A stretch of 64,000 nt of DNA, taken from positions 20,920 through 84,919 of IMG/VR virus record IMGVR_UViG_3300017971_000250, one strand, 5' to 3'. Below the pieces are notes generated by a model, which worked only from the letters and a program-made list of their open reading frames with translations, made no database searches and was not told the origin of the DNA. A program made the position numbers and the translations under genes. Below, piece after piece: positions 7,274-60,331 of this stretch (positions are counted from its first letter, which is position 1; each line of letters opens with the position of its first letter). Source of the DNA: a virus.

Positions 7274-9331
7274 TTAGGTCGTCCGCCGTTCGGGCTTGCG
7301 CCCGTCCCTGCGGTCGACCAGCAACCGGCTCAGCACCCTCATTAGTGCGGCCGGAAACGTCGCCAGGTTATCGACCTGGAACCAGGTCGGGTAGTAGTGG
7401 CGCGGCGCGTCCGTCTGGATCCCCGCGCCGATGCACTCGATGCCCGCCTTGCCCGCGCGCTTGACGATCTCGCGTAGGTGGTCGCCGAGAATCTGCTGCG
7501 AGTCCCAACCCGATGGCTCGTAGGGCTGGCCGTCGCAGAAGGTGATCAGGATCTTACGTTCCTCGGGGCGGGTCGCTAGCTGGCGTGCCGCGAAAAGCAC
7601 CGCCTCGTCCTCCGGGGTGCAGCCGTCCGCCGTGATCCCCATCATCTTCAGGCGGGTCTCTTTGCCGTAGCGCTCCTCCCAGTCCTTGTAGATCCGGATG
7701 CGGACCCGGTTGAACCGGGTGTAAGGCCCCTCGACGCGGATCCCGCTGCACTCCGAGTCGTAGCCGCAAACCATGAAGCTCGCGCCGTTGACCTTCGAAA
7801 GGCACTCGCTCATCGCCAGCGCCGCCGCCCGCGCGTAGGTGGTTCTGTTGTTGCTCTGCATACTGTCCGACTCGTCGATCACGATCGCGACCGCCGCGCC
7901 GAGCTTCTCACCGGGCTCGCGCTCGGCGAAAACCCTGCGGTTGCCGAGCCGCACGCTGTAGAGGGTCGAGGCGTCAACCGAACCGCGCTCCTTGCCGCCG
8001 CGCCAGGTCGCCGCCGCGCGCGTCCGCAGGACCGCGAGGATCTTCTGCTTCAGTGTCGTGGCTGGTCCGTGGACCTCCTTGGCCACGCTGTTCAGGATCT
8101 TCTGGCGCTGGTCACGGTCGCTATCCTTGACCCGCTCGCGGATCACCCGGTCCATCGCCTGCGCCTGGGGATGCGGCAGGTAGCGGCGGTTCCCCTGCGC
8201 GTCCAGCGCCGCCGCCGCTTCGATCTGCTTGCGGACCTCGTCCTTCACGTCCAGCGTCTCGGGGAGGCCCTCGTTCAGCTTCCGGGCGAAATCGTCGCGC
8301 TCTGGATTCGGCTGGCTCTGCTGGCCGCCCTCGTTGCCCTCACCGCCGCCCGGCTTGTTTTCGTCACCGCTGCTCGGCTTGCGTCCCTTCCCGGGCTTGC
8401 CTCCGCCCGGGGTGCCCGGCTCGCTGCTCTCTTCGCCGCTGCCCTCGCCGCCGTCACCGTCGCCGCTCTCATCACCCTGGTCGTCGCCGTCCGTCCCGTC
8501 GCCCTCGCCCGCATCGCCATCCTCATCACCCTCGTCGCCGCCCTTGCTCTTTCCGCCCTGGCCGCTGCCCGGGGTGCCCGCGCCCTGGTCGTCGCCCTCT
8601 TCACCGCCGTCGCCCTGGTCCATCGGCTGCGGCGGCGGGGGGATCAGGTTCTTGATCCGCTCAACGGTCTCGCGCGCCAGCTTCAGCGCGTCGTCGACGC
8701 TGGTCTGGTGCTTCGCCCGCTCGATCAGGTCGGTCAGCATATCGGCTACCGCCCGCGCGCCCGGGGAAAGGTAGCTGTCGTCCGCACCCTGCGCCCGGTC
8801 GATAATCGCGCAGCCGATCTCCCACCAGGGGTCGGGGGTTTCACCGGCCGCGATCTTCTGGCCGTTGCGCTTGCGCATGAAGGAACCGAGGCGGGAAAGG
8901 TTCTCCGCGACCCCAGGGTAGTCAGCGCGACCGCCCGCCTCGATCCGAATGTCCTCGTAGGCGTTCAGCAGCATCGTCTCTTTGGCGATGGTCAGGATCA
9001 GGTTCTGGTCCGGCTTCGGGCTCCGAAGCTCCCGCTCCATCCGTCCCTGCTGCGCCTTCATAACGCTCATCGGCGAGGTGTAGCGCAGGCCCGCCCGCGT
9101 CGCCTCCTTCGCCCGGGCCTCCTCACGAACGTGCAGCCACTCGTGATCGATCATCCCCTCCAGCAGCCGCTGGTCGGCGTCCCGAAGGTAGTCGGCGTTT
9201 GCCGGGATCGCGATCACGTTGCCGTCCGTCGCGCAACCCGCGCCCGTCAGGACAACCCTCACGTCGCGCTGCTGTGAGAACACCCTGGCAATTTTCTCAA
9301 AATACGATTCCAACCGTGCCGCCGTCTTCAT
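7274..9331 (-). CDS. CobT-like VWA-domain protein (partner of the MoxR/CobS-type ATPase)
   Basis: 685 residues, ATG 9331. The N-terminal 230 residues contain a zinc-protease-like DHEWLH (63-67) and mostly helical sequence. Residues 236-345 are an extreme Asp/Glu/Gly/Pro-rich linker, as in cobaltochelatase CobT. The C-terminal VWA domain has a MIDAS motif IVIDESDSMQS (D486, S488, S490), a downstream GITADGCTPEDEA and FCDGQP. VWA proteins of this architecture work with MoxR/CobS AAA+ ATPases in remodelling or metal insertion; the ATPase lies upstream at 9987-11210, separated by an HNH gene. Its start overlaps the HNH stop (ATGA). Its substrate in the phage is unknown; cobalamin synthesis itself is unlikely because no other Cob genes are seen. 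Confidence 0.85.
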   Translation of the reverse strand: MKTAARLESYFEKIARVFSQQRDVRVVLTGAGCATDGNVIAIPANADYLRDADQRLLEGMIDHEWLHVREEARAKEATRAGLRYTSPMSVMKAQQGRMERELRSPKPDQNLILTIAKETMLLNAYEDIRIEAGGRADYPGVAENLSRLGSFMRKRNGQKIAAGETPDPWWEIGCAIIDRAQGADDSYLSPGARAVADMLTDLIERAKHQTSVDDALKLARETVERIKNLIPPPPQPMDQGDGGEEGDDQGAGTPGSGQGGKSKGGDEGDEDGDAGEGDGTDGDDQGDESGDGDGGEGSGEESSEPGTPGGGKPGKGRKPSSGDENKPGGGEGNEGGQQSQPNPERDDFARKLNEGLPETLDVKDEVRKQIEAAAALDAQGNRRYLPHPQAQAMDRVIRERVKDSDRDQRQKILNSVAKEVHGPATTLKQKILAVLRTRAAATWRGGKERGSVDASTLYSVRLGNRRVFAEREPGEKLGAAVAIVIDESDSMQSNNRTTYARAAALAMSECLSKVNGASFMVCGYDSECSGIRVEGPYTRFNRVRIRIYKDWEERYGKETRLKMMGITADGCTPEDEAVLFAARQLATRPEERKILITFCDGQPYEPSGWDSQQILGDHLREIVKRAGKAGIECIGAGIQTDAPRHYYPTWFQVDNLATFPAALMRVLSRLLVDRRDGRKPERRTT

Positions 9332-46374: not shown

Positions 46375-47592
46375 CTAGACGGCGGTCTCGCCGAAGTTTT
46401 TGCCGAAGACCAGCGCGGTCAATTCCTCGAAGTCGCAAGCGATCTTCGTGGTGATCGCATACTGGTTGACGCCCTTGAAAATGTCCCTGTCCTTCTCGAT
46501 ACGGATCTCGCGACCGATACCGACGATCAGGTTCATAAAGTGCGTCAGCACGACCTGCGGCTGCGCGGAGTAGGTGATCTTGACGGTGTCACCATCACCG
46601 AGCGAGCCGCCAGCGTTTCGAGCAATCGTTCCGTTCGTGTAGTCCATGTCGTAGTCGGTGCCCTCGACCAGCGGCGTGCGCGGGGTATCCCCGGTCAGCG
46701 TATCGCCGGTCATGTCGAACACGACCTCGGACGCGGAAACGATCGGAGCGAAGAGGCACGAAACCGCCGTGGTCGTAGGCAGCACGAGGTGCTCCGTGAT
46801 CTTCGGGTTGAAAGGCCAGAGCGGGAACGGAGCCATCTCAAGTCCGTAAGGGGTCAGCGGCGAGCGGGAACTCAGAGCCGCATCACCAGCCGCCGTCGCA
46901 CGAGAGGCGGTCCGCTCGCGGAAGAGTTGCTCCAGATCAGGAGCCAGCAGCATCCGCAGCTTCGAGTAGTCACGACGGAACTTCTGCGGCATCGCACGAA
47001 TCATTCCGGAGACCGTGGAGGGTCCGATATTCGCGCCAGCCGCGTTGTAGACGTTCCCGGAACGTGCCTTCTTGAGCCAGCCGTCGAAAAGCTGCAGGTA
47101 GGTGTCGAGGACGTACTGTGTAGCCGATCCGCCGTCGATGATATCGCCCTGCAGAGAAGCCCGACCGAGCGTATCGCCGTTGACGTACAACTCCTCCATG
47201 TCGTTCGCAAGCTGAGCCGCCATCATGCGGATGATCGTGTCCTCGACGTCGTCGCCTTCGATGTTCTCTTCGCGGAACTCGTCTCCGATCTCGAAGGGCA
47301 CCACGATCGTCTTCGGGGTCAGCGTCACCTTGGAGGTCGTGACGCCGCGCCGACCGGACGGAGCGACCGCCTCGGTCTTGGGCATCGCCACACGCTTCCC
47401 GACGCCGATCTTGTCAATCTCCCAGTCCGTCTTGATACGCACGATGCGCGCGTTGTTCTTGAGGCCCGAGAGATCGACGACGTAGTCGATGAACTTTTCC
47501 GCCTGCTGCGGATTGAGCCGACCGGCCAATGCGATCGCATCGGCCGTCACGACCGCTTTGCGGACCAGCTCCTCATTTGAGACCTTTGCCAT
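46375..47592 (-). CDS. Major capsid protein
   Basis: 405 residues, ATG 47592 with AGGAGGAAGG upstream. The segments NPQQAEKFIDYVVDLSGLKN, EIDKIGVGKRVAMPKTEA, ITLTPKTIVVPFEIGDEF-like sequence, AAQLANDMEELYVNGDT and HFMNLIVGIGREIRIEKDRD fit a HK97-fold major capsid protein of large myoviruses. It lies after the scaffold/protease genes and before the connectors, as expected. Confidence 0.88.
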   Translation of the reverse strand: MAKVSNEELVRKAVVTADAIALAGRLNPQQAEKFIDYVVDLSGLKNNARIVRIKTDWEIDKIGVGKRVAMPKTEAVAPSGRRGVTTSKVTLTPKTIVVPFEIGDEFREENIEGDDVEDTIIRMMAAQLANDMEELYVNGDTLGRASLQGDIIDGGSATQYVLDTYLQLFDGWLKKARSGNVYNAAGANIGPSTVSGMIRAMPQKFRRDYSKLRMLLAPDLEQLFRERTASRATAAGDAALSSRSPLTPYGLEMAPFPLWPFNPKITEHLVLPTTTAVSCLFAPIVSASEVVFDMTGDTLTGDTPRTPLVEGTDYDMDYTNGTIARNAGGSLGDGDTVKITYSAQPQVVLTHFMNLIVGIGREIRIEKDRDIFKGVNQYAITTKIACDFEELTALVFGKNFGETAV

Positions 47593-47666: not shown

Positions 47667-48566
47667 CTAGAGAACGCCTCCCCAAAACTTCCCTTCGTCG
47701 GGCGAACCGTCGGTGCCGTCGGTCTTCTTGACCTTGCTGACGCCGGTCGCGCCCTCTACATCTTCCATCCGCTTCTGCAGACCCGCGAGCGCCTCTTTCA
47801 AGTCGCTCAACAGCTTGCCGTCGCCTGCATCGCCGTTCGATCCCGTAAGCTCCGCGAACCCGTCCGGGTCGAGGTCCTTGTAGAGACCGAGGAACGCTTC
47901 GGCCGCCTTGCGCATCTGATCACGACGGGTGTTGGTAAAGCCCTTGACGCCCTTCGTGGTCTTCTTGCCCTTGCCCTTCGCGCCCTTCTCGTCCTCGTCC
48001 TCTTCCTCGTCTTCCTCGTCCTCGTCCTGCTTGCGGCCGCGCGCCTTGTCCTTCTCTTCCTCGGCCTCGTCGTCCTTCGGCTTTTTGGCCTTCGCCTTCT
48101 TGTCGTCCTCGTCCTCGTCGTCCTCGTCGGCCTTCGCACCACGTGCCTTCTCCGCGCCACCTTCGCCGTCGGCGTTCAGGAGCGCACTCAGCATCTGTGC
48201 GAGCTTTGACATTGGACCACGCAGCGAGGCGGGGAGCCCGGCCGATTTCTTCTCATCGTCCTTCGACTTCCCCGCCTTCTCCGCATCCCGCTGATCGCCA
48301 TCGTCGCCTTCGTTCCCGAGTCCGTAGACGGACAGCGCATCGGTCAAACTCTTGATCGCCTCGACGACCTCTGCGGAGTCCGTAACCGGAGCCCCGGCAG
48401 CCTCGGGATTGTCCACAACTGTGGTCTTCCCCATCTCTTCGCCCTCCTTGTCTTGCCGCTTCACAACGGCAAACGGTCTCCTGTTTGCGGGATTATCCAC
48501 GAGGCTCACCTCATCGACCCGCAGCGTCGTCAGTCTCTGCTTTGCACCCTGATCAGTTTTGGCCAT
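47667..48566 (-). CDS. Scaffold-like protein with XkdF-like N-terminal motif
   Basis: 299 residues, ATG 48566. It begins with LRVDEVSLVDNPANRRPF, a motif shared with phage prohead protease (XkdF-type) proteins. The middle is a very acidic Glu/Asp/Lys low-complexity region (about 130-215) and the C-terminus is helical (AAEAFLGLYKDLDPDGF, LSDLKEALAGLQKRME). Acidic helical proteins placed between the protease and the capsid gene are usually scaffolds cleaved during maturation. Confidence 0.75.
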   Translation of the reverse strand: MAKTDQGAKQRLTTLRVDEVSLVDNPANRRPFAVVKRQDKEGEEMGKTTVVDNPEAAGAPVTDSAEVVEAIKSLTDALSVYGLGNEGDDGDQRDAEKAGKSKDDEKKSAGLPASLRGPMSKLAQMLSALLNADGEGGAEKARGAKADEDDEDEDDKKAKAKKPKDDEAEEEKDKARGRKQDEDEEDEEEDEDEKGAKGKGKKTTKGVKGFTNTRRDQMRKAAEAFLGLYKDLDPDGFAELTGSNGDAGDGKLLSDLKEALAGLQKRMEDVEGATGVSKVKKTDGTDGSPDEGKFWGGVL

Positions 48567-48616: not shown

Positions 48617-51517
48617 TCAATCACGCAATCGTTGAGCGCGCGCGACACCGCCAATACTGAACCCGTTGATTTCTCCGGCCTTGACCTTTTCCCAGGCCGC
48701 GTCGTCGTTCACGCGCTGCGACATCATCCAGGAGCCCTTCTTCACTTGCTGACTCCCGAACTTTGCTTCCTCGCGCGTCACCCACGACTCGACCAGGTCC
48801 AGATCACGACCGAACTCCTTGTGCATATAGCCGGTGCGCGTCCGGTGATTGTAGTCTGCGAGATACCTGTAGGCCGCCTCTTTCACGACCTCCGCCGAGT
48901 AGATATCGCCTTGTGCATCAACCGTTTCCGGCTGGAGCACAACGCCCGTCACGACCCGCTCCGGGGGTTTGCCGTTCCCCGGGCTGCGGACCTCCGCCTT
49001 CACGATCGGACAGTAGAACGTCTTGATGACCTCGACCGTTTCGGCGACCTCCGCGAGCGCCTTCGAAGCAAGCTCCTGGTCCTCGGGGCGCTCGATCGTC
49101 CAGCCATCCGCCGCGCGCTTGACGAGGTAGCGCCCACGGATCCCGTCGCCCTCGAACCAGAACTCCCGCTCGTCCTCGGTCTGGACGCCCGCCCACCATT
49201 TGAACGACTTACGCACCCGGAACCGGGACCAGGAATCCTCGGTCGACCCCGGCCGTCCGGGCGGGAACGCCTGCGCCGTGCGCTTGCCGACGTCCAGCCA
49301 GGCCAGGTGCCCGCGCGTGACGTCGGCGCTCTTCGAAAGCTCCGCAGGCTCCTGATCGGCGTCTTTCAGGTGCGCCGCGACGTGGCTCCAGACGCCCTGC
49401 CGCTCTGCAGCCGGGATGGTCGTGCCTCCCCGGCCGCCATTCAGGATGGCGATCGACGATGAGCACGCCTTCAGGTTCGCCGCGCCCACCTTGCCATCAG
49501 GACCGACCTCGTGGTGGATGAACTTGTAGGCGGCCTTTTTCTCGGGGTCTCCATCCGGATCGACCCAGGCAAACGCGCCGCGATAGTAGTCAGCGGTGCC
49601 GTCGTTCTTGAGACGTGCCTTCGCTCCCGGCCCGTCCCACGGCTTGTCGGACGTCGCCGTGTGGTGTATCGGCAACGCACGCTTGGTGATCACGGCGGGC
49701 GGCTGCAGATTCATCGGAACCGGATCCGTCATGGGACCGGAAAATGCGTTCTCCTGATACTGGTCGCCAGGGGTCAGCACCTCGCCGCCCTGCCAGTGAT
49801 CGTCCCCCTTGCGGACTAGCCGCAGGTCGGTATGGATATCGAGCGCGTCCAGGCCCCCGCCGTCTTCCGCTTTCTGAACGGGCTCCCATCCGAGCGCGTT
49901 CGCCTCCTTCGCCTGGTCCTCGACGAGGCCCCGCTCGTGCGTCTGCAGGATCCCGTAGCCGTGCTCGCCCTCCTGGAAATCGAATCCCCCGAGCCGCTTA
50001 GCCGCCGCCGCTTCGAGCGCCTCGTCCTGCTTATCGAAGACCGCGACCAGAACGTCCTCGCCCCGGCCACCCGGGGAGGTGGTGAGGTGGAACCGCTTGG
50101 TGAAGCAGCCGTCGACGCCCGCCTTGCCGAGCCAGTCGACGAACTCCTCCATGCTAGACCACGCCTTGACCTGCGTCGTATCGCGGCCGGGCGCGCTGCC
50201 ATTGCTGAGGTGGACGAGGTGGACCGCGCGCTGCTTCGCTACCCGGAGCGATTCGGCGATCGCCTTCTCCGCCCGGGGGACGTGGCCGAGCAGGTCGATC
50301 GAGAACGCGGTGTCGAACGCGCCGTCGGCGAATGATAGGTCGGTCGCATCCTCGCGCACGACCTGGAGTCCCTTGGCGACCGCCTTCTCAACCGCATAGC
50401 TGGACAGGTCCACGCCCTGCACCTTCGCCCCCGAGGCCGTCAGGAGCCCGAGCCCGCGTCCGGGACCGCAGCCGACTTCCAGTATCTCCTGCCCTTCGAG
50501 GTGCTTGGCGACCTCCGTGAAGAGCGCCGCGTAGTCGACGTCCGCTTCCTCCCGGCCCTCGAAGTAGTGCTCGTCGAAGACGTCGCCCGCAGGCTCGATC
50601 GATTTCACCCGCTGGATCGCGCCGCCGCTGAACGTGACGAGCGTCGGCGCGTCGTCCATCTCGATAATTTCCCAGTCCGAATCCTCGATCGCCTCTGCTG
50701 ACTTCCTGGAGAGCTTGTAGTTTGTCAAGATGAGCGTGGTCAGCGCCTTAGAGCCGCCGACCCGCGCGGCCGGATGCCGACGCGGCCGGATGATCATCTT
50801 GTGCGTCCCCGAGGTGTCGAGCGCTCCCTTCGCGCCGTAGGTCACCAGCCAGTGTCCCTTGAGCCCCTGGAGAACCTTTCGGAACCGCGCGACGTCGAAG
50901 TCGCTCTCACCGACGCGATGGTTGTAGTTGTCATAAGGCGGGTCCAGGTAATGAAATGCGTGGGAGCCGTCGTACTTCTGGAGCGTCTTTGCATAGTCCT
51001 GGTGGTAGATGTTGACGCCCTTCAGGCGGGGCCGCGCGCGCGCAACGTGCTGGCCGATGCCGACCGCCTCGTTGTCCTCGCCCTCTAGATAGGTCCCCTT
51101 CCCGCGAGCGATCGAGAGGCGGCGGAGGTAAAGCTCCTTGTAGAGCCGCTGCAGCTTGTCCTTGGGATCCGAGCCCTTCAGCTTCAGGAACGTCGACCGG
51201 CGCGCGCGCCAGTCGAAGGCCATGAACTTTTCCAGATCCGCGTCGGTCATATCCCGGACCGTGATGTAGCACTCGGGCACGTCGGGATTGAGGTCGCTGA
51301 GCGCCTCGGTCTTGACCTTCGGCTTCATAAAGAAACAGGCCGCCCCGCCCATGAACGCCTCGGTGTAGGTGCTGTGGTTGGCATCGAACATGGGGATCAG
51401 CACCTTGGTCAGTCTGATCTTGCCAGCCGGAGACGGATAGAAGGGGCTCGGCTTTCCGAACTTGCTCTCTTCGACGCGGGTTTCCTCGCCCTTTTCAGGC
51501 GCGGCTGTCTTTCCCAT
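48617..51517 (-). CDS. Fusion protein: Dam-like DNA adenine methyltransferase + second SAM methyltransferase + prohead protease (XkdF-like)
   Basis: 966 residues in one uninterrupted frame, ATG 51517 with GGAGG upstream. Domain 1 (about 20-300): Dam/D12-like N6-adenine methyltransferase with EAFMGGAACFF and DPPY (192-195). Domain 2 (about 325-495): class I SAM methyltransferase with ILEVGCGPGRGLGLL and a VQGVDLSSYAV acidic loop. Then a linker, a phage protease-associated domain (615-727, HHTATSDKPWDGPGAKARL), and a C-terminal XkdF-type putative serine protease domain (834-957; GVVLQPETVDAQGDIYSAEV, MHKEFG with H899, NGFSIGG with S954). It may couple DNA modification to capsid maturation, or a protease may have captured a methyltransferase. 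Catalytic motifs look intact. Confidence 0.85.
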   Translation of the reverse strand: MGKTAAPEKGEETRVEESKFGKPSPFYPSPAGKIRLTKVLIPMFDANHSTYTEAFMGGAACFFMKPKVKTEALSDLNPDVPECYITVRDMTDADLEKFMAFDWRARRSTFLKLKGSDPKDKLQRLYKELYLRRLSIARGKGTYLEGEDNEAVGIGQHVARARPRLKGVNIYHQDYAKTLQKYDGSHAFHYLDPPYDNYNHRVGESDFDVARFRKVLQGLKGHWLVTYGAKGALDTSGTHKMIIRPRRHPAARVGGSKALTTLILTNYKLSRKSAEAIEDSDWEIIEMDDAPTLVTFSGGAIQRVKSIEPAGDVFDEHYFEGREEADVDYAALFTEVAKHLEGQEILEVGCGPGRGLGLLTASGAKVQGVDLSSYAVEKAVAKGLQVVREDATDLSFADGAFDTAFSIDLLGHVPRAEKAIAESLRVAKQRAVHLVHLSNGSAPGRDTTQVKAWSSMEEFVDWLGKAGVDGCFTKRFHLTTSPGGRGEDVLVAVFDKQDEALEAAAAKRLGGFDFQEGEHGYGILQTHERGLVEDQAKEANALGWEPVQKAEDGGGLDALDIHTDLRLVRKGDDHWQGGEVLTPGDQYQENAFSGPMTDPVPMNLQPPAVITKRALPIHHTATSDKPWDGPGAKARLKNDGTADYYRGAFAWVDPDGDPEKKAAYKFIHHEVGPDGKVGAANLKACSSSIAILNGGRGGTTIPAAERQGVWSHVAAHLKDADQEPAELSKSADVTRGHLAWLDVGKRTAQAFPPGRPGSTEDSWSRFRVRKSFKWWAGVQTEDEREFWFEGDGIRGRYLVKRAADGWTIERPEDQELASKALAEVAETVEVIKTFYCPIVKAEVRSPGNGKPPERVVTGVVLQPETVDAQGDIYSAEVVKEAAYRYLADYNHRTRTGYMHKEFGRDLDLVESWVTREEAKFGSQQVKKGSWMMSQRVNDDAAWEKVKAGEINGFSIGGVARAQRLRD

Positions 51518-51586
51518 TTCTGCCTCCTGATCGCGACGGACGCCCTACCCGACAAAATCGTATCAGGCGGACAGCACCCGGCGCAA

Positions 51587-52364: not shown

Positions 52365-55300
52365 TCACTCGAAAAGCGGTCGACCGACGATCGTGATCGC
52401 TTGCTCGATCTTGCGGTCGCCGAGCTTCTTGATTCCGTGCTTGCGCAGGACTGCTAGAACTTCCTGCTTCTCCTGTAGATTCGGAACAACGACCGATTCC
52501 AACGCATCGCTAAAGTCGACGAAGTTGCGGACCGTCGTTTCGTTGCCATAATTGTCCGCGCTAGCCGCCCAATCCCGCGCGTTGAAAAGACGGGTGTTGC
52601 GCGCCCGCGTTTTCATTGAGCCATACCGATCACCCTCATAACTGAAGGTCGTGGTCTTGCGCATCGTTTTCCGGGGATTGAGAACGTAGCTGTTCCCCAT
52701 GTCGCCGACACTATTGGCCCCGTAACCCGTCCCCTTTTTGATCTTTCTGATGCGGGTGAAGACGTTGACGGCTCCACCTGACGCGCGGTCAGCAGTCGGA
52801 GACATACCGGCGATTCCGATCCCCGCGCGGATCTTCTCTTCGGTGGCGATCAGGCCCTCGGTGCCGCTGAGGATCTTATCGAGCGACTCCGAGATCCTCT
52901 TACTCGTCCCGGTGATCGTGTGGACGAGCTTATGGCTTTGATAGAACTCCTCTTCTGCCTGCGTGACGGGAGCCTCCCAATAGGCGCGGCCAAACTTCGT
53001 CCCATGATCGAACTTCGGCACCGAACTAAACCCGCGCTCCTTGGTGAGCGGGACATTGTTCTCGCTCAGCAGGTCGCGTAGCTTCTTCTTCTGCGTGGCG
53101 GGTGTGAGCGTCTCTCTGACCTTTGCAGCCCGCTTGCCGAGACCCTTGTTCTCCGCTACCAGCCGCAAGTAGAGCAGGTCGATGTCGTCCGCCGTCGCGA
53201 TCTGTGAATTGAGCCCGAGCGACTTTAGCTCGCCGAGCATCGCTTTGACCTCGGTGATCGTGACGTCGGCCGCTCCCTTCGCCTTCGGTAGCCGCATCAC
53301 AAACTGCCCGGAGGCGGAGAAGTGGTTCTTCGTATTCTCGGCGATGAATGGGGTGTACTCGATCTCGATTCCGCTCGGCGTCTTGATCTCCCAGGTCATT
53401 GCCGCGCGGCGCAGCGATGAGCTTGTCTCCCCCGTCCATTCGATCTCGCGCGTGGTGAAATTGAACTCTCGCCTGCGAACGGGCATCTCCCGAAACCGAC
53501 GCACGGAGTATCCTCGCGGCGGGTCCTGCATGACCTTTTCGAGCTTCCGCATCGACCCCTGGCGGAGCTTGCCCTCCATGAGGAAGCCCTCGCCCTTCAC
53601 CTGATAGGCGAGAAGCTGCATCTCCTCGAAGTCGCTACCGCCGACCATGACCGCCTTGCCCGCCCACTTCGACTCGATGATCTCCCTCACAAGCACGTCG
53701 TCTAGCTGCTGGACGGCTCCCGGAGGCATGGACACCTCGGGGGCAGCAATCGAAACGGTTGGTGCCTTGGGGACGGGCGGATGAAGCTTCTTTTCGAGCA
53801 CCTTGTAGAACTTCTCGGCTTCCTTCCGAAGGGCTCGCTTGCGCGCGGCCGCCTGCGCGATGAACTCGTCGGCGCTCAAGTCCTTCATCCAGAACTGCCC
53901 CGAGAAGCCCATCCGAACCGCGCCCTCCTTGTAGGCTTTCTCGGCAGCGAGAGCATAGGGCCGGATGATGTTGGCGAATGCCTCGTCGGACATATCATCG
54001 ACGGCTTTGAGGAACCCCTGAATTCGTCTGTGATTGATTTCTGCTAGCTGGACAGCGTCACCTTTGATCGCCGATTGAAACATCGTGTGATAGTAGGTCG
54101 ACGACGGGTTCGGAGTGCCGGACGCTCCGTAGCCGAGCGTCAGCTTGTCCTTCCCGAAGAATCGGAACGTCTGCCCCTTATCGATAAAGACCGTGTGGCC
54201 GTTGGTGAGTTTGATGAGGTTGCCCGAATGTGTGTCGTGCTGACTGATCAGCCAGTCGAAGAGGTGCTGCCGCTGAATGATTGAGCATTCGGTTGCCGAG
54301 AGCGAGCTAGGAGCGATGCTCCCGTAGTCGCTGACGACGTTGGTGTACATCTTTTGAATCGAGCCGACCTTGCCGCCGAGCCGCGTCATGTAGACGTCCG
54401 GAGTCTCCAGCCCGAGCGCCTTCGCCATATCAGCAGCCAGCACATCGCCGCGCGCCCTGAACTCCGACTGCGGTTTGAAGAGCCAGCGCGTCCCGTCGGG
54501 GGCTTCATAGACCGACTTCGAATGCATCCCGTCGAGTCCCTGGCGGCCGAGGTCCTTCATCTGGCTCTCTTCGAAGGGGAACGCGTCAGGCGGCCGGTCA
54601 GGCGGGGGCTTGATCGGTTGCGGCTTCGGAGGGGGCGGCGGCTTCTTGGGGAGCGGAGCGGATAGCGGCTGCCCCGCGACCGGAGGCTTCGGCGGAATCG
54701 TTACCGGGGGCTCGGCGGGCTTCGCGGGTTCCGGCGCGTCCGGGATTTCCTCGTAAGGCTTGAACGTCGCGTCCTCGGCGATATCGATGTCGCACCGGCA
54801 GCGGAAGTGATAGGTCGGCAGGCAGTGACCCGTTTTGGCGAGCGCCTGCGCCTTGTGAGGTGCGACGCGGCCGGTGTCCTTCGACGTCGTGAGTGAGTCC
54901 TTGTTGATTTGTTTCAGGCGGGACCACGGCTGGATCAGCTTGACACTGTTCGGTTCGCTCGCCCCCTGTAGCTCGGTGACCTGCGTGTCGGCCTGCTGGA
55001 GCGTGAAGACCTTTTTGTCCATGAACCCGCAGACCTCGCAGGTCCGCTCGTCCTGCGCCGCGATCACTTCGATCAGGCTCGCCCCGACCTCTTTGTACTC
55101 CTGGACCTTTCCCGCGATCCGCGCGGTCGTCGTCGCGTTCGCGGCAACGCCCTCGAAGTATTGAATCGGCGAGCCGTTCCACTTCCCGGGGATCCCGAAG
55201 GTCCCCGCCGTCCCGAACGGCTGCTTTGGGTCGTACCCGAACTCCGCCTTCAGTGATGCCTCTAGAGCCTTCGCCGCCTCCCGACGACTGAGGCCCTGCT

Positions 55301-55934
55301 TGAGCATCGTATCCTCGGCAATCGTGGCGATCTTGTTGGAGACGTTCTTGGCGTGGTGCTGCCCGATCCAGTAGGTCTGGTGGGTCTTCATCGATTCGAC
55401 GGCCGCGTCGTCGACGACGCTGAATCGCGGTTTGATTTCGAAGGTGGTGCGCGGCTTCCCCTTCGCCTTGCGCACGTCGTCGAACGTCAGGTGTGGGGAG
55501 ACTGGACGGACCACGCGGTTGTTGGGATGCGCGTTCGCTCGGGCGGCCGCCTGGACCTTCGCTTCCCGATACGACGCGCGGAGCACCGCCTCGACGATGT
55601 GCTCCGTTCCCGCATCCCAGTTTTGGAAGGCGCGGTCGACTCGCTGCTTGACCGCTTCGACGTCGGCACGAGTAGGCCGCCCGTCCGGGTCCCCTTGGCC
55701 TGCGCGGTCGGTAGCATCACGCACCGCAACGCGAGCGGCCTTGGTGTAGGCCCGGACGAGCGTCTTGAATAGCCGCGCCTCCAGCGCGACGAACGGAGCC
55801 GTCGGATCCTTCGTCGCCGCCTTGACGAGGATCACGTCAGTGGCGACCAGCGCCTCCGCTAGCTGCTGCGGGGTGCTGTGCTCCAGGTCAGCACCCGGGG
55901 GTGCGGTGACCTGGTCAGTCGGCGAGCCGCCCAC
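52365..55934 (-). CDS. Giant MuF-type head morphogenesis protein fused to a HipA/PI-kinase-like domain and an unknown C-terminal domain
   Basis: 1189 residues from GTG 55934 (AAGGAG upstream), overlapping the portal stop by 20 bases. MuF/SPP1-gp7-like part (about 185-395) with ERTCEVCGFMDKKVF (C299, C302) and HCLPTYHFRCRCDIDIA. A Pro-rich linker (400-450) leads to a kinase-like domain (455-680): RWLFKP (K487), LISQHDTHSGNLI (H566-D567, N572) and FIDKGQTF (D585), the catalytic layout of HipA and phosphatidylinositol-kinase-like folds. C-terminal regions (750-950 and 975-1189) are unassigned; KLVHTITGTSKRISESLDKI, GIAGMSPTADRASGGAVNVF and TRI resemble modules found at the ends of actinophage MuF fusions, perhaps ADP-ribosyltransferase-like. 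MuF proteins are packaged and can carry effector domains. Confidence 0.83.
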   Translation of the reverse strand: MGGSPTDQVTAPPGADLEHSTPQQLAEALVATDVILVKAATKDPTAPFVALEARLFKTLVRAYTKAARVAVRDATDRAGQGDPDGRPTRADVEAVKQRVDRAFQNWDAGTEHIVEAVLRASYREAKVQAAARANAHPNNRVVRPVSPHLTFDDVRKAKGKPRTTFEIKPRFSVVDDAAVESMKTHQTYWIGQHHAKNVSNKIATIAEDTMLKQGLSRREAAKALEASLKAEFGYDPKQPFGTAGTFGIPGKWNGSPIQYFEGVAANATTTARIAGKVQEYKEVGASLIEVIAAQDERTCEVCGFMDKKVFTLQQADTQVTELQGASEPNSVKLIQPWSRLKQINKDSLTTSKDTGRVAPHKAQALAKTGHCLPTYHFRCRCDIDIAEDATFKPYEEIPDAPEPAKPAEPPVTIPPKPPVAGQPLSAPLPKKPPPPPKPQPIKPPPDRPPDAFPFEESQMKDLGRQGLDGMHSKSVYEAPDGTRWLFKPQSEFRARGDVLAADMAKALGLETPDVYMTRLGGKVGSIQKMYTNVVSDYGSIAPSSLSATECSIIQRQHLFDWLISQHDTHSGNLIKLTNGHTVFIDKGQTFRFFGKDKLTLGYGASGTPNPSSTYYHTMFQSAIKGDAVQLAEINHRRIQGFLKAVDDMSDEAFANIIRPYALAAEKAYKEGAVRMGFSGQFWMKDLSADEFIAQAAARKRALRKEAEKFYKVLEKKLHPPVPKAPTVSIAAPEVSMPPGAVQQLDDVLVREIIESKWAGKAVMVGGSDFEEMQLLAYQVKGEGFLMEGKLRQGSMRKLEKVMQDPPRGYSVRRFREMPVRRREFNFTTREIEWTGETSSSLRRAAMTWEIKTPSGIEIEYTPFIAENTKNHFSASGQFVMRLPKAKGAADVTITEVKAMLGELKSLGLNSQIATADDIDLLYLRLVAENKGLGKRAAKVRETLTPATQKKKLRDLLSENNVPLTKERGFSSVPKFDHGTKFGRAYWEAPVTQAEEEFYQSHKLVHTITGTSKRISESLDKILSGTEGLIATEEKIRAGIGIAGMSPTADRASGGAVNVFTRIRKIKKGTGYGANSVGDMGNSYVLNPRKTMRKTTTFSYEGDRYGSMKTRARNTRLFNARDWAASADNYGNETTVRNFVDFSDALESVVVPNLQEKQEVLAVLRKHGIKKLGDRKIEQAITIVGRPLFE

Positions 55935-58800
55935 CTACCGGCTCCTTCTTCTTGCGCCCGGATCCGTTATCCCGCCCCTCCTCCATCTCGACAAAGAGAC
56001 GGCGTTCGAACTCCTCCTCTAGCGCATCCCGGACAGCGAGGATCGCCTGCAGCGGTCCGACCTCCAGCCGCTTCATCATTCCGTCTCCAGGATTCATGTC
56101 CTGGTTCTTCGCCGCCTCGGCGACCTGGAGCGTGAATGGGACATTCACGTCGATGCCGGTCACCGGGGGAAGCTCGCGGCCGACGATGTCGCCGATGATC
56201 TCGCGCGCCAGCCACGGGCTCATTCCGCCCGTGCGCTCCGCCGCCATCAGCACCCGGATCAGGTCCTGGTCGTCGGTGACGTTCGGCCCCTGCGAGACGA
56301 ACTTGTGGTAGACGATCCCCATTGCGGGAAAGAGGAACTTGTTGATCCAGTTATCGAAGGCAAGCCGCTCGGGAGCGAAGATTTGCTCGTCGGCCAGCTT
56401 CCGGCTCGCGTCGGCGGTCGCGCGGGTGTAGTCGTCTGAATTGCCCGAAATCAAGACGCGTCCATTGCGACGCGTAACGAGCGTTCCGTTCGGAACTGTG
56501 AAGCATGTCACTTTGCCAGAGTACGGGACAGTCCGGATCTGTTTTCGTGCCTGAAGAAGATGCCTGCTGTCACGATGCCCGTAGGAAATCCATCGAATGC
56601 TCCGATTCTCGCCCCGATCTTCTTCGCGTGTCGTGAGTGCGTACCCAAGCCGGAGTGCGATCTCATGTAATTGATCGCTTAGCACTCTTGATGTCGTCGA
56701 GTAGACGAAAGCGTCTTCCGTCCCAAGCGGAGGACGGTTTCCGTCGCCCTCGATCATTGCGTTGAGAAGACTCTCGATCTGTTCCTGTTCCAGGTCTAAC
56801 ACCCACCGAGGAAGGCGCTTATTAGAGCAGCCTACACCGCAATTCTCACGCAACCACTCCCACAACCCACTATGACAGATTGTCAGACTGTATTGCCCTG
56901 GACGGCCTTCGGTTCGACTAGGATCGAAGCCGAGTCGTTTGAGAACATCCACCATCCTCTCCAAAACCTCACCCTCGTTCTGTGAGAGCATGATCGGTCC
57001 ACGCCGTTCTGTCGTAGACCCCTCGGAGATAAAATAACCTAGGAATTGCAAAAACGCGTCCATGGACACGTCACGATTCGCATACTTCACTACCGCACGC
57101 TCTGCACGCTCGGTATCCCGATGCGGATTCTTGGACGGAGGCGATGCCCCGTCACGGCCGTTAATACGACCGCCTGGGGGAATCGCAAACCGTTCTATCT
57201 TTCTCCCTCTCCAAGACGCGGAGACTGGAATCTCCATGCAGCCACCATTTCCTCGCAAGCATTCGGTCGCAAGAGTGTCGGCGGCGAGAAATTCCCATGG
57301 CTTCGGCGTCCGCGACATAGCAGCGGTCGGACGCGTCCAAAAACGGTGATTCGGCGTAACCATCGCATCGATTCCACGATTCTGTAGATGGAGCAACTCC
57401 CCTTCAAAACTATAGCTGTGCCGTTCTGTAGGCACTTGATATTCTAATGCCCCCGATGCCGTGTTCATGGTCGCTACCGCCACACCATCCGCAACATCCT
57501 CGAATCGCTTCCAACCCACCTCGGTGAGGTATTCCGTGTCCTCCGAATGACATCCTCCGATGAAGATAGGCGGCAGCCGGAACGCCTCGCGGATCTTGTC
57601 GCGGTTCGCAGCGCCGTACTCCTGGAACATCATGTCGCGCATTTGCTCGTTGGTGAGCGGTTTGATTTCGAGCTTGATCTGACCCGTGTCCGTCCCGTCC
57701 TGAAGCTGCGACGGCTCGCCTTCGAGGATCAGGAACCGGCTCCAGTTTGCGGAGCCCTGAATCTGCGTCTGGACGAACTCACGGATCCGCTTCACCGAGC
57801 CGGAGGTGAGACGGCCGTTCGAGACGGTGATCGCCATCGACGGGATGTTGTTATTGCGCAGGGTCGTGAAGTTGACCTCCTCGGCGGAGCGGTCCCCCAT
57901 GATAGTGATCAGATTCCCGAGCCAGCGCGGCAGCCCGTAAGGGGTACGCGGAGAATGGTTGCAGAAGTAGATCAACTCATTGGCGCGCTTCTCGGGCTCC
58001 AGCTTCTCCCCATCAGGAGCGAACTTTCCGGTCTCCGCGTCCAGATCGCGCGGGTCCCCAAATTGCTTGAACCAGACCGGCTTGTCATTCGTCCCGACGG
58101 GCGGGACGACGACGTAGCGGCGGAAGTAGCGCTTCACCTTGACGTTTCTGATCTCGCGTGAGCCGTTATCTGTCAGCATCGCCATCGCCTGCTCCGTTTC
58201 GACCAGCTCGCGCCCCATGTGCGCCAGCCGGATACGGTAGCCGGGGACGTAGTTGAGGAATTGGATTTCGCCACTGACCGGACCCCGGATGACTTCCCAT
58301 CCTCCAAAACCGATCGACTCACGATCACGGCGCGTCTTCGAGCGTAGCTCGACGAATGTATCCTCGGCACTGCAATTGGCAAAGAAGTTAGTCAGTCGGG
58401 TGCGCTCGGCCTTGACTGCGATCTTGAGCCGATCGGGGCATTCGGGATCGTCGGTGTTGACGAGGCGCTGGAAAGCATGCCCGAAGCCCTCGATGTTGAC
58501 GACCATGACGTCGATGCACTTCCCAAGGTGAGCGGACTGCTCTGGTAGCATCGCCAAGACCAGTGGCTCGAATGGCGGGGAGATGACCTCGTTGCGGGAC
58601 ATCGATCCGAATCCCTCAGAGGGAAACGTACGTGGCCGCCCACTCGTCGCGGTTCCTTTCTCGATACCGACCGGCCCAATGATGAAGGCTCGCGCGGCAC
58701 CGCTCGCCCGCTTCTGCATTTCGGCCGCTTCGGTTCCCGGCTGCGGATTGCCTTCGCCCGGAACTGCGCGCCGCCTTGCTTTCGTCTCTTTGCTGGACAC
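55915..58800 (-). CDS. Portal protein containing an intein
   Basis: 961-residue precursor from GTG 58800 (AGGAGGGAAGCC upstream). Portal extein N-terminal part: EVISPPFEPLVLAMLPEQSA, GGWEVIRGPVSGEIQF, NHSPRTPYGLPRWLGNL, EEVNFTTLRNNNIPSMAIT, and EYGAANRDKIREAFRLPPIFIGG. It resumes after the intein with SDDYTRATADASRKLADEQI and a helical clip/crown region. Removing residues 417-787 gives a 590-residue portal of normal size. The insertion falls in the conserved loop before the Asp-Asp-Tyr-Thr-Arg helix. Encoded between terminase and the MuF gene, the standard order. Confidence 0.92.
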   Translation of the reverse strand: MSSKETKARRRAVPGEGNPQPGTEAAEMQKRASGAARAFIIGPVGIEKGTATSGRPRTFPSEGFGSMSRNEVISPPFEPLVLAMLPEQSAHLGKCIDVMVVNIEGFGHAFQRLVNTDDPECPDRLKIAVKAERTRLTNFFANCSAEDTFVELRSKTRRDRESIGFGGWEVIRGPVSGEIQFLNYVPGYRIRLAHMGRELVETEQAMAMLTDNGSREIRNVKVKRYFRRYVVVPPVGTNDKPVWFKQFGDPRDLDAETGKFAPDGEKLEPEKRANELIYFCNHSPRTPYGLPRWLGNLITIMGDRSAEEVNFTTLRNNNIPSMAITVSNGRLTSGSVKRIREFVQTQIQGSANWSRFLILEGEPSQLQDGTDTGQIKLEIKPLTNEQMRDMMFQEYGAANRDKIREAFRLPPIFIGGCHSEDTEYLTEVGWKRFEDVADGVAVATMNTASGALEYQVPTERHSYSFEGELLHLQNRGIDAMVTPNHRFWTRPTAAMSRTPKPWEFLAADTLATECLRGNGGCMEIPVSASWRGRKIERFAIPPGGRINGRDGASPPSKNPHRDTERAERAVVKYANRDVSMDAFLQFLGYFISEGSTTERRGPIMLSQNEGEVLERMVDVLKRLGFDPSRTEGRPGQYSLTICHSGLWEWLRENCGVGCSNKRLPRWVLDLEQEQIESLLNAMIEGDGNRPPLGTEDAFVYSTTSRVLSDQLHEIALRLGYALTTREEDRGENRSIRWISYGHRDSRHLLQARKQIRTVPYSGKVTCFTVPNGTLVTRRNGRVLISGNSDDYTRATADASRKLADEQIFAPERLAFDNWINKFLFPAMGIVYHKFVSQGPNVTDDQDLIRVLMAAERTGGMSPWLAREIIGDIVGRELPPVTGIDVNVPFTLQVAEAAKNQDMNPGDGMMKRLEVGPLQAILAVRDALEEEFERRLFVEMEEGRDNGSGRKKKEPVGGRLAD
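56440..57552 (-). other. Intein with LAGLIDADG homing endonuclease in the portal protein (371 residues)
   Basis: The intein begins with Cys (CHSEDTEYLTEVGWKRFEDV) and ends VTRRNGRVLISGN before Ser+1. Block B is AMVTPNHRFW (66-69). Two LAGLIDADG motifs are present: FLQFLGYFISEG (about 167-178) and LLNAMIEGDGN (about 262-272), each with an acidic residue, so the endonuclease may be active. The residue before the terminal Asn is Gly instead of His. The coding sequence is more AT-rich than the portal extein, consistent with later acquisition. Confidence 0.92.
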
Positions 58801-58810
58801 GGCTTCCCTC

Positions 58811-60331
58811 CTAGATCAGCCCCGGCTCCTCGCGGGGCTCCATCGCGCGCCCGGTGCGCGCCTCGGATGCGTGAATCGCCAGGTCGGTCGCGTCGAACAA
58901 GTCGTCGGGCGAGGTATCATCGCCTCGGAAGAGCACCAGGTGATCGATGAGATCGGTGTGCGCGCCCCGAACGAAGTGGACGTTTCCCGCTTCGGTGCGC
59001 GCGGAGAGCTTCGCTGCCCTGATCGGCTTGTTCTTGTTCGTGATCTGTGGGTAGGCATTGAGCCAGGGTGCCTGGCGACGCACCTCCTGGAACTGCGCCT
59101 TCTGATACGCATTCGATTCGATCGCGGTTCGATTCGGCCGGTAGCGCTTCCCGAACTCGATAATCTTCTCGGTCTGCTTGTGGAACGGCAGCCCCTGCTT
59201 CTCGTAGAACGTCCACACCCAAATATCGTCCCATCGTTGCGGGACACGGCCGATCACAACAATCGCAAACTTGTCGGCCCGCTTCGAATCGCCGATCGCC
59301 AGGTCGACGCCCATGAAGATTTCGACGTCGTGAGGCGAGGGGAAGTCAGCAGCGTCGACCTGGTGCAGGTCTCCGAGCGGGAAGTAGGAGCCCTTCATCG
59401 GGTCATAGTTGCAGAGCCATTGCGAAGCAAAGATCACAGTGCCGACTTTGCGTCGCTTGCGCTCGATCCAGTCGCGCGGATAGCGATCCGGCCAAACGGG
59501 GGTCCCATTCGGCTTCACGATTGGGATCACGAGCGTGCGCTCTTTCATATCGGTCTGCAGGAAGTGCCACCAGAGGTCGTCGATCTGATACGGGGTGCCG
59601 TTGTAGTGTTTCTGTCCGCACTCCGGATCGTCAGGGTAGGCGGCCGGAGGGAGCCCGCAGGGATCCAGCACGCGGTCGTGCCATTCCTGGAGCCGCTTGC
59701 GTTGGTAGGCGGTCGCTGAGTTTTCCTCCTCGACCAGGTCGTCGCCGAAGATGATGCGGTAGTGCTTCGAGGCGACCGCGCCCTCAACGCCGACGGTATT
59801 GATGGTCGGCGTGACGCGCTTCCGGGCAACGCCCGCGACGTCGATTGCCTCCTCGGTCCAGCGATACTCACCAACGAAGTCGCCAAAGATCTCGCGTAGC
59901 TTCTCGTTCGATTCGAAATGCCCTTTGATCTCGCCGAGCATATCCATCGAGTTGCCGTGCTTCTTGGAGCCGATCAGGATGGTGGTTTCGCGGTTGCGAA
60001 TGACCGCGCCGATCGATTTGACGACCGTGCGCATCGTCGTCTTGCCGGAGCCCCGGAAGGCCAGCACCAGGTCCTCGCGGTGCCGGGCGGTGTGGGCAAG
60101 CATCCGATCGTGAAGGCCGCGACGGATCTTGTAACCGAGGACCTCGGTCGCCAAGACGTCGTCGCGGCCAGCAAGAACCGCACGACGAATCAGGGAGTTT
60201 TTCGTCTCCCTGATCCCTTCGTGAACCCGGACTAGCTCATCGCGGCCCGCCTTCTTGAATCGCTCCGACTCGAGGGTGCGGACGAAATCCAAACCGGGAT
60301 GCGCAACGAGTGATGGCTTGCCTGCTGGCAT
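58811..60331 (-). CDS. Terminase large subunit
   Basis: 506 residues, ATG 60331. ATPase domain: Walker A LAFRGSGKTT (about 90-99), Walker B RIIFGDDLVEEE (192-203) and a coupling-like region downstream. The RNase H-like nuclease shows acidic residues in FMGVDLAIGDSK (D343), TAIESNAYQKAQ (E405) and DDLFDATDLAIHA near the C-terminus. It packages DNA through the portal encoded immediately downstream. Confidence 0.92.
   Translation of the reverse strand: MPAGKPSLVAHPGLDFVRTLESERFKKAGRDELVRVHEGIRETKNSLIRRAVLAGRDDVLATEVLGYKIRRGLHDRMLAHTARHREDLVLAFRGSGKTTMRTVVKSIGAVIRNRETTILIGSKKHGNSMDMLGEIKGHFESNEKLREIFGDFVGEYRWTEEAIDVAGVARKRVTPTINTVGVEGAVASKHYRIIFGDDLVEEENSATAYQRKRLQEWHDRVLDPCGLPPAAYPDDPECGQKHYNGTPYQIDDLWWHFLQTDMKERTLVIPIVKPNGTPVWPDRYPRDWIERKRRKVGTVIFASQWLCNYDPMKGSYFPLGDLHQVDAADFPSPHDVEIFMGVDLAIGDSKRADKFAIVVIGRVPQRWDDIWVWTFYEKQGLPFHKQTEKIIEFGKRYRPNRTAIESNAYQKAQFQEVRRQAPWLNAYPQITNKNKPIRAAKLSARTEAGNVHFVRGAHTDLIDHLVLFRGDDTSPDDLFDATDLAIHASEARTGRAMEPREEPGLI

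Follow-up and report, generated by a model that had tools for sequence, protein, structure and literature searches.

We analyzed a 64-kb stretch of viral DNA (hereafter, the window), part of an 84.9-kb IMG/VR record, and found its predicted head-maturation protease to be the C-terminal domain of a single polypeptide that also contains two methyltransferases and a module resembling the LigD 3'-phosphoesterase (PE). The recurrence of such fusions in dozens of uncultured viruses and in myxobacterial prophages suggests that the protease carries protective enzymes into the phage particle. The reading frame is intact and starts with ATG, encoding 966 aa plus stop, and is laid out as follows:

51523..51528, minus strand: AGGAGG ribosome-binding site of the fusion gene, 5 nt upstream of the ATG
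48617..51517, minus strand: complete ORF, D12 methyltransferase, class I methyltransferase, LigD-PE-like module interrupted by WDG, XkdF
50663..51454, minus strand: D12 (Dam-type) N6-adenine DNA methyltransferase domain, aa ~22-285 (Pfam PF02086, phrog_13242)
50018..50590, minus strand: class I SAM-dependent methyltransferase (Methyltransf_11/MetW-like), aa ~310-500 (Pfam PF08241)
49682..49981, minus strand: LigD 3'-phosphoesterase-like module, part one, aa ~513-612, with QTHERG and HTDLR (HxDxR) (phmmer with the L115 module, alignments)
49331..49681, minus strand: WDG module, aa ~613-729, inserted in the PE-like module (recurrence in phage head proteases)
49028..49330, minus strand: LigD 3'-phosphoesterase-like module, part two, aa ~730-830, with GHLAWL and GDGIRGRYLVKR strands (phmmer to the L115 module)
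48623..49039, minus strand: XkdF-type (Peptidase_S78_2) head-maturation serine protease domain, aa ~827-965 (Pfam PF14550, phrog_3017)

The preliminary description of this DNA had placed two methyltransferases and a prohead protease in one frame. The ORF lies at exactly its coordinates, Pfam recovers three families above their curated cut-offs (D12, Methyltransf_11, and Peptidase_S78_2), and the domain searches that it had proposed agree between Pfam and PHROGs on D12 and XkdF. The LigD-PE-like and WDG modules, spanning residues ~513-830, had been passed over.

The D12 domain matched PF02086 (MethyltransfD12) at residues 32-197 (E 6e-13, 49.5 bits against a cut-off of 22) and phrog_13242 at residues 15-310 (E 9e-76). 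Its motif I (TYTEAFMGG, at residue 50) and the previously noted DPPY (residues 192-195) are both conserved in an alignment with 16 relatives; relatives are ~27-39% identical to the window protein. The class I methyltransferase matched PF08241 (Methyltransf_11) at residues 346-431 (E 1.5e-16), and the GCGPG motif reported for it earlier is present within EVGCGPG (residues 347-353). The same module recurs in the XkdF polypeptides of two other loci, L115 and L326. Judged by these motifs, both methyltransferases look catalytically intact. The window shows no overall depletion of GATC sites (638 seen, 659 expected), which is compatible with the predicted methylation activity of the D12 domain without proving it.

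The XkdF domain matched PF14550 (Peptidase_S78_2) at residues 852-960 (E 6.7e-27, 94.4 bits against a cut-off of 24), and phrog_3017, labeled "head maturation protease," matched the C-terminus of the fusion (E 7e-28). His899 and Ser954 were invariant among 20 aligned sequences. The profile, the His and Ser residues, and the position before the scaffold and capsid genes all fit a predicted head-maturation protease, which we take to belong to the assemblin-like peptidase class. The preliminary description had named missing catalytic residues as grounds for abandoning its reading; the motifs are retained in the D12 and XkdF alignments of relatives. A search of the viral record for an alternative S78 protease found none. 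The ORF has no in-frame ATG at residues 602-898, and a scan of its internal starts found no strong ribosome-binding site ahead of the XkdF domain; the fusion therefore appears to be the sole source of the protease.

Sheath and baseplate genes in the record indicate a contractile-tailed phage. The head genes are ordered terminase, portal (with an intein), MuF-like protein, a 256-aa protein of unknown function, fusion, acidic scaffold-like protein, and major capsid protein, with the following assignments around the fusion:

58811..60331, minus strand: terminase large subunit
55915..58800, minus strand: portal protein interrupted by an intein
52365..55934, minus strand: MuF-like head protein with HipA/kinase-like region, 1189 aa (weak sub-cutoff Pfam matches, motifs read by eye)
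47667..48566, minus strand: acidic scaffold-like protein, directly downstream of the fusion (phrog_13975, E 0.0013)
46375..47592, minus strand: major capsid protein (phrog_1623, same family as at the Myxococcus xanthus AM003 prophage locus)

Within the head operon, the fusion takes the usual place of the protease, flanked by portal/MuF on one side and scaffold/major capsid on the other. In M. xanthus AM003, a fusion likewise lies between terminase/portal and scaffold and capsid families matching those of the window, the family downstream being again phrog_13975. Elsewhere in the window, the portal intein (55915-58800, minus strand) has LAGLIDADG_3 domains and runs from CHSEDTEYLT to VISGNS; the MuF-like protein, with the motifs QHDTHSGN and FIDKGQ and more unknown sequence, is a second head protein with passenger domains; and a 685-aa CobT-like protein with a VWA domain is encoded at 7274-9331 (minus strand).

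For the middle region of the fusion, Pfam and NCBIfam gave no useful match, and WDG has no family name in either. Neither the full-length fusion protein nor the PE-like region alone found a relative when viral contigs were searched with single-sequence patterns. The second half of the PE-like module matched the module of L115 (phmmer E 7.8e-14), which is uninterrupted there, with no WDG inside, as it is in L326 (57% identical to L115). Profile comparisons joined the window-type module to a second variant from other XkdF polypeptides (hhalign probability 94.6) and the phage modules to myxobacterial LigD over the whole domain (probability 91.7, E 8e-7). A PDB sequence search with the second variant returned LigD PE chains as all of its top four matches (best E 0.001), and the H...HxDxR motif is invariant in the alignment of PE-like modules. 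MAFFT alignments that combined WDG with PE sequences were excluded, as they put the PE parts in the wrong place. The module thus resembles the LigD 3'-phosphoesterase in its HxDxR motif and in its profile match to myxobacterial LigD but differs in lying below the curated LigD_N cut-off (PF13298, 31.1 bits; no Pfam match in the window, best phage relative 15.9 bits) and, in the window variant, in carrying an insertion with the WDG module. The structural model reached a pLDDT of 68, and a fold search placed LigD PE at ranks 22 and 24, not significant. Because of the sub-cut-off LigD_N match and the low-confidence fold search, we restrict the name to "LigD-PE-like."

The inserted WDG module (~115 aa) has the signature WDG...KFxHHEV...GARGGT. 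In Thermus phage Riverbug it is joined to a Mu-I-type protease, in Streptomyces phages to the annotated fusion of maturation protease and MuF, and in viral contigs to proteases of the S49 and S78 types; the loci bearing it are L022, L015, L023, L031, L006, L008, and the window at 49331-49681. WDG is common to at least four kinds of predicted phage head protease (S78, S49, Mu-I-type, and XkdF). Its AlphaFold model, a confident one (pLDDT 95), found no similar fold in the PDB, and the module is a target for separate study.

Using D12-seeded searches of viral contigs and GTDB genomes, we gathered, from independent contigs and genomes, 57 further proteins that have D12 and XkdF in a single frame (58 with the window), ranging from 418 to 2175 aa. 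D12 precedes XkdF in all 58, and XkdF is C-terminal in 57, with at most 31 residues following; the gap between the two is 12 residues or less in 30 of the 58. Most proteins have one D12 copy (45), with two in 9 and three in 4 of them. Motif I and DPPY are both kept in 71 of the 75 D12 copies, the GxS pattern of XkdF is present in 55 of 58 proteins, and both Pfam domains were recovered in 16 of 16 proteins, window included, in alignment A6. The pairwise distances of the D12 and XkdF domains were strongly correlated (Mantel r 0.83, 0 of 2000 permutations) and remained so among divergent pairs (r 0.62). The other passengers vary: an ATP-dependent DNA ligase is found in L115, L174, L277, and L326 and the class I methyltransferase in the window, L115, and L326. 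The L326 polypeptide has no D12, its XkdF being accompanied by the ligase, the PE-like module, and the class I methyltransferase. In L280, L295, and L299, D12 and XkdF lie unfused in adjoining, overlapping frames.

The D12-ligase-XkdF polypeptide of L277 (1794-7130) itself carries an intein. Myxococcales genome G012 contains two giant ORFs with LigD_N-like regions, L174/L361 of 2175 aa and L332 of 2140 aa, the former combining three D12 copies, the ATP-dependent DNA ligase, and XkdF. The D12-XkdF polypeptide at L258 (1153-5625) has an above-cut-off Pfam match to the Thoeris (Type I) inhibitor Tad3 (residues 1238-1306, 34.6 bits), hinting at anti-defense cargo.

As D12-seeded searches are biased toward the fused form, we searched Myxococcota with the XkdF model alone. 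In total, 31 of 195 genomes were positive, and D12 was in the same ORF as XkdF at 27 of the 30 loci examined. Counting the 2175-aa L174/L361, whose D12 copies lie outside the stretch retrieved in the XkdF survey and are known from the family survey, 28 of 30 loci are fused. In this phylum, the premise of the preliminary description that a prohead protease usually stands by itself or with scaffold does not hold. Among the matches listed from 50,697 deposited phage records, none had D12 and XkdF joined, and the best match listed covers 29% of the fusion protein; this may explain why the arrangement has gone undescribed. No description of a D12-XkdF fusion was found in the literature covered, in which subscription journals were largely absent.

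In the 64-kb window, 13-14 of 36 testable 6-bp palindromes occur at less than one quarter of expectation, against 4 of 2532 nonpalindromes below the same threshold; CCGCGG was not seen (~45-50 expected), CTCGAG was seen once (~34 expected), and GGCGCC was not seen (30-38 expected). Control stretches of proteobacterial chromosomes had 0 of 38 palindromes depleted, while related records and prophage loci had one to five. We read the avoided palindromes as the mark of strong pressure from type II restriction, and the avoidance indicates that the phage probably lives with DNA-restricting hosts. The phage's own methylases evidently leave the avoided sites unprotected, and the avoidance supports the pressure rather than the mechanism. 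As fusion-bearing myxobacterial prophages show little avoidance, the fusion is not generally linked to restriction.

Head-maturation proteases work from the inside of the procapsid. If XkdF acts there, the enzymes fused to it would enter along with it, and since the protease shows no separate start and D12 lies within 12 residues of XkdF in 30 of the 58 family members, we infer that the methyltransferases reach the procapsid unless they are cut off beforehand. At maturation, the protease would probably cut itself and the enzyme parts loose, and the freed enzymes could stay in the head until they leave it together with the DNA. Once in a new host, methylation by the Dam-type enzyme would shield the arriving DNA from restriction, and its breaks and ends would be tidied by the end-processing module, together with the DNA ligase in relatives. 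The passengers, predicted to be Dam-type methylases, DNA ligase, and LigD-PE-like modules, mostly suit such care of an incoming genome. We found no capsid-targeting signal or cleavage site in the fusion protein, and fusion by itself can serve co-expression, a point against the cargo reading. Also against it are the avoided palindromes that the methylases leave uncovered and the sub-cut-off match of the PE-like module. In its favor are the conserved architecture and the co-variation of D12 and XkdF across the family, the fused state of 28 of the 30 Myxococcota loci examined, the DNA-directed passengers, the adjacent unfused genes at three loci, the matching head module of M. xanthus AM003, the restriction pressure on the phage, and the precedents of polyvalent proteins and DarB. 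On balance, we put the chances evenly that the fusion is a capsid-targeted polyvalent cargo protein delivering DNA-protecting enzymes. With slightly less confidence, we propose that XkdF may be a general cargo chassis, on which a large group of uncultured phages would load and release interchangeable DNA-protecting and repair enzymes for delivery. The preliminary description had suggested that a methyltransferase is placed in the procapsid, possibly to be cut off by the protease, and this is still the best reading; delivery with the genome, however, has better support than its proposal that the enzyme marks DNA at packaging.

Packaging-time marking belongs to a possible but doubtful alternative, in which the methyltransferases act in the producing cell, co-expressed and placed at the procapsid, methylating the DNA of the progeny as it is packaged or earlier, and are discarded afterward. 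The late-gene position of the fusion and the intact catalytic motifs would be expected from it as well, and stand-alone D12 methylases are common in phages. Co-expression, however, needs no fusion to the one protein entering the procapsid, and the ligase and LigD-PE-like passengers have no obvious part in marking DNA for packaging.

A mainly structural part for the N-terminal domains, as bulk or scaffold of the procapsid with methyltransferase folds exapted for assembly and not catalysis, is unlikely. In its favor, the domain content is highly variable and scaffold is often fused in the protease slot, but the retention of DPPY and motif I at the above rate, despite identities of ~27-39%, points to catalysis, and a separate scaffold-like gene immediately follows the fusion. 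We regard as similarly improbable that the long ORF yields separate proteins through internal initiation or host proteolysis and that the fusion is functionally meaningless. The split, adjacent versions at three loci indicate that fusion is not obligatory; on the other hand, the region before the protease domain has neither the in-frame ATG nor the strong ribosome-binding site that internal initiation would use, about half of the family has the domains at most 12 residues apart, and nearly all Myxococcota loci examined are fused. A sequencing or assembly artifact joining separate genes, raised in the preliminary description as a possible refutation, can be dismissed almost entirely, as isolate genomes and unrelated contigs yielded 57 independent fusions with an unchanged domain order and nothing was found in its favor.

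If delivery by the protease is true, the head protease would be both the loading signal and the release mechanism for enzymes acting on the genome at cell entry. Injected phage enzymes could then be found by a simple rule, reading the fusion partners of the protease, and the system would be testable in M. xanthus prophages.

The closest known concept is that of polyvalent proteins. The passages of Iyer et al. (2017; PMC5512222) on this class describe several unrelated enzyme domains per polypeptide, encoded among virion genes, with DNA adenine methylase a frequent passenger and assemblin-like peptidases always C-terminal, and a delivery model is published there for the class. The window fusion is similar in having at least two disparate enzyme domains, a C-terminal peptidase, and a late position among virion genes. 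It differs in its methylase, which in those passages is DarB/type-I-like with a SWI2/SNF2 helicase and here is Dam-type D12 joined to XkdF. Term searches of the main text of that article turned up no XkdF, and the ligase passage in it concerns RNA ligases.

Phage P1 provides a further parallel. Its DarB, a DNA-methylase protein in the head, is believed, in the passages of PMC9024508 and PMC5512222 that treat it, to enter the cell with the DNA and act against restriction. Both systems would have a head-carried methylase. DarB, however, is a protein of its own (250 kDa), with a helicase and an N-terminal targeting signal, and the P1 Pro protease has its own gene; Pfam found no helicase domain in the window polypeptide, which is thus not a DarB-type methylase-helicase.

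Homologous protease domains also stand alone between portal and capsid genes, in Otagovirus and Rhizobium phage RHph_Y1_11, but at 152-212 aa and without passenger enzymes. The phage-record matches named "DNA methyltransferase/prohead protease" (RHph_Y1_11) and "DNA methyltransferase" (Otagovirus) were rejected, as both contain XkdF only. The phrog_1530 label "DNA methyltransferase" sits on XkdF-only proteins such as that of Otagovirus, and the bare 152-aa XkdF proteases of Otagovirus and related records (e.g., L003) apparently take their annotation from it. Our analysis corrects this annotation, a methylase label hiding a protease. In PHROGs v4, the short D12-XkdF form, ~460 aa long in Myxococcus or Corallococcus prophages such as those of L175 and L184, is represented by phrog_13242 (450 aa), which L184 matches over its full length (E 4.5e-302); the family is labeled "unknown function," and the window adds the class I methyltransferase, PE-like, and WDG modules to it.

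Already known, then, are polyvalent proteins, as a concept, with a maturation peptidase at their C-terminus, and the clustering of the short form, without a function, in phrog_13242. New are the Dam-XkdF fusion, the form in which the predicted head protease of Myxococcota normally occurs; the putative ligase, LigD-PE-like, and class I methylase passengers as a modular set on the XkdF chassis; and the WDG module shared by otherwise unrelated predicted head proteases.
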